DNA of 64,000 nt, taken from Paenibacillus pinihumi DSM 23905 = JCM 16419. GTDB lineage: Bacteria > Bacillota > Bacilli > Paenibacillales > Paenibacillaceae. The stretch's first letter is position 1. Every line of letters starts with the position of its first letter. The stretch is taken from positions 25,744-89,743 of the forward strand of contig NZ_KE383870.1 in the NCBI RefSeq assembly GCF_000422505.1, read 5' to 3'. The translations under genes were made by a program, and so were the position numbers. Below are positions 40,351 to 54,752 of this stretch, one piece after another. The notes beneath the pieces were generated by a model. The model ran no database searches and was not told where the DNA came from. It was given only the letters and a program-made list of their open reading frames with translations.

Positions 40351-41727
40351 ATGGTGGATATTCATTTATATTTTAGTCAGGAGCTGCTGGGCTGGTTCCA
40401 TATTCATAAGCGGACGCTGCCCTGGCGGCAAAATCGTGACCCTTACCGGGTCTGGGTGTCGGAAATTATGCTTCAGCAAACTCGTGTGGATACGGTAATT
40501 CCCTATTACGAGCGGTTTATGGAACGTTTTCCTTCTGTAACTGCCCTGGCGGAGGCTCCGGAGCCGGAGGTACTCAAATGCTGGGAAGGACTCGGCTATT
40601 ATTCCCGGGCCCGCAATCTTCAGGCTGGAGCGAGAGAAGTAGTCGATAAATATAATGGCGTGATACCGGATGATGCTGATGCTGTCGCCGGATTGAAGGG
40701 AATTGGACCCTATACGCGAGGAGCTGTCATGAGCATTGCTTTCAACAGGCCGGAGCCTGCAGTGGACGGCAATGTGATGAGGGTGCTGTCCAGATATTTT
40801 TGTCTGGAGGATGACATTGCGAAACCACGCACGCGTGTTCAACTGGAGCATCTGGCCAGGTCGCTCATCCCCGAAGGGGCAGCAGGTGATTTCAATCAAG
40901 CCTTAATGGAACTTGGGGCGCTCGTATGTACGCCCAAATCTCCCGGCTGTCTGACCTGCCCGGTGATGGTGCACTGCCAGGGCCGTCTGGCCGGGAAAGA
41001 GACGGTGCTGCCGATCAAGACGAAGGCCAAGCCTCCACGTGAGGAAAGACGGCTTGTTGCGCTTATTGAAGGCAATGGCGCCCACGCAGGAAAAGTGCTC
41101 GTGCGCCAGCGCCCGGAGACCGGCCTGCTCGCGCAGATGTGGGAGCTGCCGCATTTGCTGGAAGACGGGGGAAACCAGGACGGACAAACACCTAAAACGG
41201 GCAGAGGACGCAAGAAAAAGGATACGGTTATGGAGGAAACAAGCGCCGGTTCAGGTTTGGCATCTGCTCCGGATAGCAACCAGTCTGCGCAAATGGAGCA
41301 ACTGGGGCGGTCGCTGGCTGCTGAGACGAGGCTGCTGGTCCGTCCGCGACACCGCTGGATGGAGGCGGAGCATGTATTCAGCCATATTATTTGGAAGATG
41401 GATGTGTTTCTGTCGGATTTCGGTTTTGTGCTGAAAGAGAATGAAGAGCAGAAGTCCCAATATGAAGCCGTACTCAGAGGGGAACTGACAGCAGCCGAGC
41501 AAAGGGCTTCTTATTGGAGAAGTGAAACAGCTCCGGCCCGGGTACTCTCTGAATCGCCGGTTTCAGCAGTAAATGAAATTGCTGTTTCATCCAATGAGCC
41601 CGAACAGCAGGGCCATGAGATTCCGCTCCCGGAAGGTTACCGCTGGATCAGTCCGGAGGATATGCGGGAGCTGGCCTTTCCCAATGTATTTTTGCGGATA
41701 TTGCGTAATTACTGGGAATTAAATTAA
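40351..41727 (+). CDS. mutY: A/G-specific adenine DNA glycosylase MutY
   Basis: A protein of 458 residues that removes adenine mispaired with 8-oxoguanine. The helix-hairpin-helix is LKGIGPYTRGAVMSIAF and the catalytic Asp lies in AVDGNVMRVLSRYF. The [4Fe-4S] loop is C-x6-C-x2-C-x5-C (CTPKSPGCLTCPVMVHC). The C-terminal NUDIX-like 8-oxoG recognition domain is enlarged by two charged low-complexity inserts (about residues 277-310 and 370-430), making it longer than typical MutY of about 360. The open frame begins at 40189, inside the AraC gene; ATG 40351 has TAGGAGAAG ahead. Confidence 0.93.
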   Translation: MVDIHLYFSQELLGWFHIHKRTLPWRQNRDPYRVWVSEIMLQQTRVDTVIPYYERFMERFPSVTALAEAPEPEVLKCWEGLGYYSRARNLQAGAREVVDKYNGVIPDDADAVAGLKGIGPYTRGAVMSIAFNRPEPAVDGNVMRVLSRYFCLEDDIAKPRTRVQLEHLARSLIPEGAAGDFNQALMELGALVCTPKSPGCLTCPVMVHCQGRLAGKETVLPIKTKAKPPREERRLVALIEGNGAHAGKVLVRQRPETGLLAQMWELPHLLEDGGNQDGQTPKTGRGRKKKDTVMEETSAGSGLASAPDSNQSAQMEQLGRSLAAETRLLVRPRHRWMEAEHVFSHIIWKMDVFLSDFGFVLKENEEQKSQYEAVLRGELTAAEQRASYWRSETAPARVLSESPVSAVNEIAVSSNEPEQQGHEIPLPEGYRWISPEDMRELAFPNVFLRILRNYWELN

Positions 41728-41758
41728 GAGTATGCAAGTGCAGCAGAAAGGACTGCGA

Positions 41759-41874
41759 GATGAAGGGCTTTCTCCGATTGCTGTTAAAGACCGATTCCCC
41801 GGATTTTGATATCCCATAGGACGGGAATCAGTCTTTAAAGGCAACCACTATCGTTTCTGCGAAAGCCCTTCATC
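41759..41874 (-). ncRNA. Structured intergenic element, copy A
   Basis: On the minus strand, 14-bp outer stem GATGAAGGGCTTTC (41874-41861) with GAAAGCCCTTCATC (41772-41759); 5' internal loop GCAGAAACGATAGTGGTTGC plus CT; inner stem of 16 bp, TTAAAGAC-T-GATTCCC with GGGAATC-G-GTCTTTAA, one non-Watson-Crick pair; apical loop about 23 nt; 3' loop CAGCAATCGGA. Further pairs outside (TGCGA with TCGCA, GCAGCAG with CTGCTGC) could extend it to 41740-41891. The two loops match copy B at 54606-54718, while the stems differ. It is therefore likely a structured RNA or structured repeat. It lies between mutY and the sodA terminator. Strand chosen to match copy B. Confidence 0.65.
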
Positions 41875-41938
41875 TCTTCGCATACTGCTGCGATACGTAC
41901 ACCCTTTAATTCAATTGGGAAGATGATGAATAAGGGAA

Positions 41939-53631: not shown

Positions 53632-54498
53632 TTGAAAAAACTTAGTTTGATTATGGCAGCTGCGCTGCTGATTACGGTGTTAGCAGGCTGTGCGAATTCT
53701 GCAGGTGGCGGCAGTAAAAGTATCAAGCTCGCTTATGTCGCCTGGGATTCGGAAATTGCCAGTACATTTGTTGTGAAGGAAGTATTGGAGCAGAAGCTTG
53801 GCTATAAAGTGGAAATGCTGCAGGTAGATGCCGGGCCGATGTTCGCCGGAATCTCGGACGGCAGCGCTGACGCGATGGTAGCCGGGTGGCTGCCTTCCAC
53901 GCATGAATCCTATATGGAGCGCTACGGGGATAAGCTGGTCGATCTGGGACCAAATCTCGCAGGAACGAAGACAGGTCTTGCTGTTCCGTCCTATATGGAC
54001 ATTACAAGCATTGAGGACCTGAACAAGGAAGAGAGCGGCCAAGCGCTCAATTACCAGATTATCGGGATTGAGCCTGGAGCGGGCATTATGATGTCCACAG
54101 AGAAGGTTCTCGATGAATATGGCCTGCGTGACAAGTGGACGCTGGTTGAAAGCTCGTCTGCAGCTATGGCCCAGGAGCTGGATAAGGCTTATAAGGCTCA
54201 GAAGCCGATTGTCGTGACAGGATGGACGCCGCACTGGATGTTCGGCAAGATGGATCTGAAATATCTGGATGATCCTAAAAATGTCTACGGCGGCGAGGAG
54301 CAAATTCATACGCTCGTGCGTCAAGGGCTGAAGGAAGACAAAGCGGATGCCTATGCTGTGCTGGACGCATTCAATTGGACGCCGGATGACATGGCCGAAG
54401 TAATGGTTGCTGTCAATGAAGGCAAATCTCCTGAGGATGCAGCCAAAGCATGGGTAGAGGCCAACGAAGATAAAGTGAAGGCCTGGATCGGAGAATAA
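53632..54498 (+). CDS. opuAC: Glycine betaine-binding lipoprotein
   Basis: A protein of 288 residues. The lipoprotein signal ends VLAGC (Cys20). The mature part is an OpuAC/ProX-type binding protein (IKLAYVAWDSEIASTFVVKE; DAMVAGWLPSTHESYMERYG; VVTGWTPHWMFGKMDLKYLD) with the Trp residues that form the aromatic box for the trimethylammonium group. It starts at TTG 53632 with GGGGGATT ahead. It is anchored outside the membrane and delivers betaine to OpuAA/AB. Confidence 0.94.
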   Translation: MKKLSLIMAAALLITVLAGCANSAGGGSKSIKLAYVAWDSEIASTFVVKEVLEQKLGYKVEMLQVDAGPMFAGISDGSADAMVAGWLPSTHESYMERYGDKLVDLGPNLAGTKTGLAVPSYMDITSIEDLNKEESGQALNYQIIGIEPGAGIMMSTEKVLDEYGLRDKWTLVESSSAAMAQELDKAYKAQKPIVVTGWTPHWMFGKMDLKYLDDPKNVYGGEEQIHTLVRQGLKEDKADAYAVLDAFNWTPDDMAEVMVAVNEGKSPEDAAKAWVEANEDKVKAWIGE

Positions 54499-54558: not shown

Positions 54559-54605
54559 TGTTGTTAGTATAAATTTAATGAAGAAACGGCAGTCGAATAG
54601 CCAGA

Positions 54606-54718
54606 GTGTGAAATGATTCTGTAGAAACGAAGTGTTCGCCTTTGTTCCCGGATTTCTACCTTTAAATTATTGCCTCAGGAAATCCGGGAACAACAGCGAT
54701 CGGAAGAACATTTCACAC
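54606..54718 (+). ncRNA. Structured intergenic element, copy B
   Basis: Outer stem GTGTGAAATG-a-TTCT with AGAA-CATTTCACAC (14 bp, one bulge); 5' internal loop GTAGAAACGAAGTGTTCGCC plus TT; inner stem TGTTCCCGGATTTC with GAAATCCGGGAACA (14 bp, perfect); apical loop of 22 nt; 3' loop ACAGCGATCGGA. Against copy A (41759-41874, minus) the 5' loop agrees at nearly all positions (G-Y-AGAAACGA, AGTG, GCCT) and the 3' loop at 10 of 11, while both stems are different in sequence but still pair. It lies beyond the opuA terminator and before the 3' end of acnA. Confidence 0.65.
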
Positions 54719-54752
54719 GGCGGCGTTGCACGAACGTAAAAAGATTAAGCAG

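Follow-up and report, generated by a model that had tools for sequence, protein, structure and literature searches.

The locus at 41759..41874 of the window (the whole 64,000-nucleotide stretch of Paenibacillus pinihumi DNA analysed here) raises the question of whether an element predicted from the letters alone, with conserved loops on changing stems and a second copy at 54606-54718, represents a selected RNA fold and, if so, whether it is a small RNA, a structured repeat or a non-autonomous mobile element. The original prediction of a selected fold was strongly supported by many further copies and by covarying helices, and the element belongs to a large repeat family that is absent from Rfam and whose hosts are the Paenibacillaceae and some neighbouring families.

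The two copies in the window

Both copies were confirmed in the window, copy A on the minus strand and copy B on the plus strand, each read 5' to 3'. The 5' and 3' loop motifs put forward earlier each matched the window twice, against 0.00 and 0.11 matches respectively expected by shuffling, and in folding none of 200 shuffles was as good as copy A (z -7.66) or copy B (z -6.37). A structure written by hand from six aligned copies was used as the basis of a covariance model (R1), which located the whole core of copy A at 41755..41882 on the minus strand (128.4 bits, E 2.5e-31; the same place was found by pattern) and that of copy B at 54599..54721 on the plus strand (113.1 bits, E 3.2e-27); copies A and B are two of the six training rows of R1. 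The core, of about 125 nt, has an outer stem of about 16 bp followed by an asymmetric loop that contains a 2-bp mini-hairpin, then a 4-bp helix (TYGC:GCRA) and, inward of this helix, a 2x2 loop (CT/CA), an inner stem of about 16 bp starting TT/AA and a variable apical loop.

The outer stem of copy A, for which 14 bp had been claimed, is present with a length of 16 bp, its 5' arm at 41861..41876 pairing with its 3' arm at 41757..41772 (minus strand, as for all features of this copy). The asymmetric 5' loop (41845..41860) carries the conserved GNAGAARCG..AGYGN and includes the mini-hairpin AC-GATA-GT (41847..41854), the columns of which covary over 67 copies. The middle helix is formed by TTGC (41841..41844), with TA/CG covariation, and GCAA (41778..41781), assigned from folding and covariation, and the inner stem by a 5' arm at 41823..41838 and a 3' arm at 41784..41799, which enclose an apical loop (41800..41822) that varies in sequence and length. 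In copy B, with all features on the plus strand, the outer stem comprises a 5' arm with one bulged A (54607..54620) and a 3' arm at 54705..54717, the mini-hairpin AC-GAA-GT lies at 54627..54633 (folding and covarying columns), the middle helix pairs TCGC (54636..54639) with GCGA (54696-54699) (folding and covariation), and the inner stem pairs 54642..54656 with 54679..54693.

The loops of the original prediction are conserved as described, but they are partly paired, because the RC..GY of the 5' loop forms the covarying 2-bp mini-hairpin and because TYGC in the 5' loop and GCRA in the 3' loop together make the 4-bp middle helix. The stems, said to be unrelated between the two copies, do differ between A and B, but other copies in the same genome have A-like or B-like stems, so that A and B are representatives of subfamilies. 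Both copies lie between convergent genes, copy A between ORFs ending at 41727 (plus strand) and 42000 (minus strand) and copy B between ORFs ending at 54498 (plus strand) and 54904 (minus strand).

Covariation of the core

Covariation was assessed in an alignment (A3) of sense copies from this genome and its relatives, for which 67 of 75 copies were kept (E 5e-13 or better) and two composites were excluded. In this alignment 95.4% of cells were paired (68.1% when shuffled), double changes were present in 635 cells (176.5 when shuffled), 33 of the 36 pairs varied on both sides and the covariation score was 0.694 (0.189 when shuffled). Sliding the partners by one column, as a control, brought pairing down to 53.8% or 42.6%. 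A further alignment (A5) of 102 copies (101 distinct) among the named-genome loci listed, mostly from named species and none of them used in model building, had 93.1% of cells paired (69.6% when shuffled), 808 double changes (226.8 when shuffled) and a score of 0.586 (0.164 when shuffled). Because the model was used to fit both alignments, their pair counts, G-U included, are tilted towards the structure, and their copies are related rather than independent; the slide control meets the biases of model fitting and kinship in part. G-T pairs outnumbered A-C mismatches both in A3 (81 to 22) and among the named-genome loci listed (129 to 47), an excess consistent with selection of the fold on the sense strand, with the caveat that the model itself tolerates G-U. 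The check suggested with the original prediction, a covariance-model search of relatives, thus returned many copies, and their pairing covaries. The structural finding is firm, and the fold, its conservation and its spread count as shown, as do the shells and, in several sets, a preferred orientation.

Within the mini-hairpin, the first pair was GC in 45, AU in 19 and other in two of the 67 copies aligned and the second pair was CG in 63 and UA in three, with 22 double-change cells against 6.3 when shuffled. The loop could be read in 64 of 75 copies (11 unread) and was GNA in 42, GNNA in 16 (GNRA in three of these 16) and other in six. RNA favours GNRA loops. Among the named-genome loci listed (A5) there were 91 GNNA loops, of which 14 were GNRA, with a binomial p of 1e-11 on the assumption of independence, whereas the 91 loops share descent; the seed pattern fixed their four-base length and left the middle two bases free. 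Over 68 copies, standard DNA folding parameters predicted the mini-hairpin little better than RNA ones, its mean probability being 0.128 with DNA and 0.094 with RNA parameters and a probability above 0.5 being reached by one copy with DNA and by six with RNA parameters. According to the published rule (PMC4686876), DNA mini-hairpins are extraordinarily stable when a GNA or GNNA loop is closed by two or more G-C pairs.

Copy number and distribution

The pattern AGAAACGAN{0,4}AGTGNNNGCCT was found at eight places in the whole genome and at none on the reversed control. Model R1 gave 71 matches in this genome, at least eight of which fell on the reverse strand at a site already counted, leaving about 63 places. 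In the set of relatives, R1 matched in 31 of 58 genomes (own, genus 6/6, family 19/28 and order 5/23), nine same-family genomes being without any match, and model R2 matched in seven of 398 genomes sampled from the phylum, none of them outside this genome and its family, in a scan that scored eight candidates per genome and could therefore miss weak families. A motif scan of named genomes returned at least 120 stretches; the pattern used fixes a four-base loop, so that the copies lean to the canonical form, and among the matches listed only Paenibacillus, Gorillibacterium (2), Fontibacillus (1) and 'Bacillus sp. FJAT-27264' (1) were represented. The largest load among the closely searched genomes was 95 model matches, in the complete genome G030. 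Subfamilies are genome-private, and copies from G003 and G004 match the element of this genome over about 95-100 inner bases at 79-86%.

No known Rfam family had been recognised in the element, in agreement with which the window and nine copy-bearing loci gave zero matches at the gathering score. A lax Rfam search with copy A and L086 gave sub-threshold matches only (best E 0.092 for copy A), and the family was not found in print by text searches of open-licence papers.

Several variants and settings of the element were also observed. The core motif is present in 16 viral or prophage contigs (L427-L442), in seven of which it lies 629-688 bases from the contig start, perhaps at one prophage edge. 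Two of the eight pattern-matched places in this genome, L068 (G000:C1:934882-935016) and L073 (G000:C11:143167-143289), are composite copies whose 3' half bears additional hairpins (AAATATAAGAG..CTCTTATATTT, then CGAAACGCTACTGCCTAA); the second composite motif has only two occurrences in the genome at up to three mismatches, and L074:3525 resembles a decayed third. A long variant in G030 (G030:C1:816410-816571, corresponding to L221:2911-3072) is accompanied by nine other listed matches of 161-164 nt in that genome, and these long variants carry in their loops an extra module of about 38 nt (GCTTTC-TGAA-GAAAGC..TCGGAAGCATA-GCT), of which P. daejeonensis (L393) seemingly has two, somewhat like the boxB modules in BOX. 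Tandem arrays of the element were seen in L384 (Paenibacillus sp. NEAU-GSW1), L351 (P. oryzae), G030:562696-563716 and G010:4442515-4443734, with periods of about 150, 224 and 270 bp.

Shells, ends and mobility

The suggestion that the element is a structured repeat or non-autonomous mobile element is supported by its copy number, private subfamilies, inverted repeats and some 8-bp duplications. Like a MITE, it is short (core about 125 nt, whole element about 195 bp in G030 and this genome), noncoding and present in high copy, and it has terminal inverted repeats, in the form of several unrelated shells around one core. The shell CTATATAAGTTSAAC..TATATAG is shared by subfamily I of this genome, G030 and P. 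baekrokdamisoli, and shell II, GGCTCAA..AATCAGTGSTTGA, by subfamily II of this genome, G006 and G039; AAGTCYGGTGAA is the shell in P. periandrae and P. tyrfis and AGAGCGTGTTCAAAAAGG that in G050, and a ragged shell is found in G003. The subfamily of copy A has no clear shell and no conserved sequence outside the core. In 29 of 98 copies the two flanks pair with one another to an extent exceeding a 5% null; a few of these copies are GC-rich or tandem.

The target duplication of ISL3 is 8 bp. In G006, where the shell is of ISL3 type, exact 8-bp duplications were present in three of the seven copies read (L156, L157 and L158, with GTTTTTTC, CGAAAATC and GAAGATAA), the other four showing one seven-bp duplication, one 7/8 match, one poor match and one damaged end, and L048 of G039 has the exact 8-bp duplication GGAATAAA on both sides. 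The ends of shell II also flank ISL3 transposase domains in G000 (C2 and C18 contig ends) and G006, and shell II was the only shell for which ends like those of an ISL3 element in the same genome, the mark of an ISL3-mobilised MITE, were found. A match to a known transposon end, named beforehand as grounds for refuting the prediction, holds only for the outer shell of some copies and does not extend to the core, which was not found with a loose pattern inside the ISL3 insertion sequences read; these were incomplete, being broken, mere fragments or truncated where a contig stops, and G000:C8:243480 is a PF01610 locus with a stop. At six loci (L088, L089, L091, L095, L096 and L103) the interior was lost and the ends were kept.

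For the CTATATA shell, the commonest, about 50 end matches were found in this genome, many of them single. No transposase-bearing end pair was found by reading up to 2.5 kb beside 13 sites, and no clean empty site was found for this shell, the purF-purM region of G428 not being clean. Alignment yielded 24 candidate empty gaps, three of which were read, one holding a different element beside the shared core and two being too diverged. Clustering of 1780 flanking ORFs produced no candidate partner enzyme that stood out, the widest clusters being ABC permeases, ABC ATPases and response regulators, followed by pur genes. At L233 (G030:C1:2426013-2434000) a core copy is adjoined by an insertion of another kind, about 190 bp long and bounded by TTGTTCAAAAAG..CTTTTTGAAC, and in the L379 and L348 species the core copy is kept and this insertion is absent.

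Placement and orientation

Copies of the element are intergenic. In G030, 58 of 69 copies follow the replichore, the two halves being confirmed by a GC skew of +0.105 and -0.098; this set was merged to 69 from 79 of the 95 matches, after exclusion of the long variants of 162 nt, of matches with an E value above about 1e-9 and of matches not listed. In co-directional gaps of the same genome 50 copies run with the genes and four against them, and the gap to the next gene is short, in many cases 45-95 nt. Among the named Paenibacillus loci listed, copies in co-directional gaps run with the genes in 59 cases and against them in 20 (p 1.3e-5), convergent gaps account for 21 of 108 copies and 10 of 119 copy-free gaps (p 0.020), and divergent gaps are depleted, with 8 of 108 copies and 26 of 119 copy-free gaps (p 0.0026). 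For these counts 143 copies were merged to 131, of which 23 were dropped (16 at an edge, five with no neighbour and two inside a called gene), the copy-free gaps were at least 200 nt long and genes were called by a simple codon-score script rather than by a trained annotator.

This genome has no orientation bias, with 13 copies in the same and 12 in the opposite orientation. In G428 the replichore is followed by 26 of 36 copies, and the 16 copies in co-directional gaps are divided into nine with and seven against the genes, in a reading of 20 of the 36 copies that were picked to include all 10 against the replichore. Beside head-on genes 9 of 13 copies follow the gene and four do not, so that gene direction and replication direction are confounded as the cause of the strand bias.

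The idea of a common regulon was discarded, an all-against-all comparison of 153 downstream proteins having given five cross-genome pairs (argJ, polC, polA, prfB and purM); a copy stands before argJ in both G000 and G009. The exception to this lack of shared downstream genes is provided by the pur operons, which carry copies repeatedly. Ten purB-purC gaps were chosen because a copy was near, and a copy lies in nine of these, all nine in sense, the gap of P. albiflavus being without one. Both flanks of the purB-purC copy are common to G018, P. albidus, P. phytohabitans and P. jilunlii, and at this shared site four of 15 inner-stem pairs are altered on both sides, with 59 of 60 cells paired. Such double changes with pairing kept point to selection in place, unless gene conversion supplied the stems, and the shared copy itself points to a long residence at this site.

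Interpretation

The explanation that we favour, with confidence that is about evenly balanced, is a non-autonomous MITE-like mobile repeat whose core is under selection for the way one of its strands folds, probably within an mRNA. The element is a hairpin-forming intergenic mobile repeat in which the loop core is conserved, the stems compensate freely and the surrounding shell is one of several. Transposases of other elements would move the shells, that of ISL3 moving some of them, with the core as a passenger. The core would be co-transcribed with the surrounding genes, and its RNA form may use the conserved loops to bind a host factor and in this way influence how the surrounding mRNA is processed or degraded, or at any rate be harmless to it, as has been proposed for BOX and bcr repeats. 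Set against this explanation are the unbiased orientation in this genome, the confounded directions, the model-fitted alignments and the few shared downstream genes, and ISL3 ends fit some shells only.

The strand that folds might instead be DNA. A structure-specific DNA enzyme would then recognise a hairpin on an exposed single strand, either the lagging-strand template or a transcribed bubble, and copy or move the element, much as Y1-type transposases recognise REP hairpins. We judge this somewhat unlikely; it is kept alive by the mini-hairpin loops, which are GNA (42/64) or GNNA (16/64) on two closing pairs that are mostly G-C and C-G, as in the rule for ultra-stable DNA mini-hairpins (PMC4686876), and are GNRA in only 14 of 91 GNNA loops among the named loci listed, and by the replichore bias of G030 (58/69) and G428 (26/36). 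However, DNA parameters barely favour the mini-hairpin over RNA parameters (means of 0.128 and 0.094), the 91 loops share ancestry and had their length fixed by the seed pattern, and replichore is confounded with gene direction. A rather unlikely proposal is that the core is a structure-recognised module of single-stranded RNA or DNA, the GNA/GNNA loop of which is read by an enzyme or host factor, and that it hops as an independent passenger between shells in the Paenibacillaceae; if true, this would amount to a new class of mobile elements defined by fold and not by ends.

Were the ends alone to matter, the element would be a passive hairpin MITE and its inner fold a by-product of recent palindromic copying. 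The several inverted-repeat shells, the 8-bp duplications and the six interior-less derivatives with ends are in keeping with this, but the loops are conserved across genera while the stems compensate, the excess of G-T over A-C mismatches is one-sided, compensation is seen at an old shared site and the same core occupies unrelated shells, and we regard a passive element as improbable. It is very improbable that the core is a cis-regulatory RNA, that is, a riboswitch or protein-binding leader with a regulon: the sense orientation and short downstream gap in G030 and the recurrence in pur operons and before argJ in G000 and G009 would suit such a role, whereas the downstream genes gave five cross-genome pairs only among 153, 21 of 108 copies among the named loci listed and both copies in the window lie between convergent genes, and no terminator or anti-RBS switch was seen.

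If the favoured explanation of a mobile repeat with a selected fold is true, an element present in many copies throughout a bacterial family is under selection for its fold, and the mRNA of many operons, the purine operon included, may be affected. The compensated stems would constitute a natural library for finding the reader of the loops, and the element would be a test case for whether such hairpin repeats act in RNA or in single-stranded DNA form, a question of long standing for REP, BOX and bcr.

Comparison with known systems

The mini-hairpin resembles d(GCGAAGC)-type DNA mini-hairpins in having, in most copies, a GNA/GNNA loop on two G-C pairs (PMC4686876), those being short synthetic DNAs whereas here the hairpin is part of a genomic repeat family. 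With ISL3 insertion sequences and MITEs the family has the end sequence of shell II in common, and 8-bp duplications are seen here, but the ISL3 copies read hold no core and the other shells have unrelated ends. REP elements, of 20-40 bp and found with RAYT transposases (PMC3733652, PMC2817692), are likewise dispersed extragenic hairpins with one strand structured, whereas the present element is about 125 nt long and has covarying stems and a different conserved motif.

By behaviour, the nearest kinds appear to be the pneumococcal BOX and RUP repeats and bcr1-3. BOX, RUP and SPRITE of Streptococcus pneumoniae are interspersed intergenic repeats, many below 200 bp, with MITE features; they are predicted to form stem-loops when transcribed, are over-represented in convergent gaps, have no link to gene class, and show a leading-strand majority of 61-63%, with 125 BOX and 110 RUP copies in one genome (PMC3049150). 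The likeness, drawn from descriptions only, lies in intergenic spread, MITE features and stem-loops, and the difference in the lineage, in one loop core on freely covarying stems and in several unrelated shells. The repeats bcr1-3 of the Bacillus cereus group are MITE-like, number tens of copies and often lie in UTRs or intra-operon gaps, and bcr3 correlates with longer mRNA half-life; bcr1-bcr18 are described as confined to the B. cereus group and as having a link with TTTAT repeats (PMC3446304, PMC6542083). In contrast, and again by description only, the present family belongs to the Paenibacillaceae and some of its copies have ISL3-type ends with 8-bp duplications.
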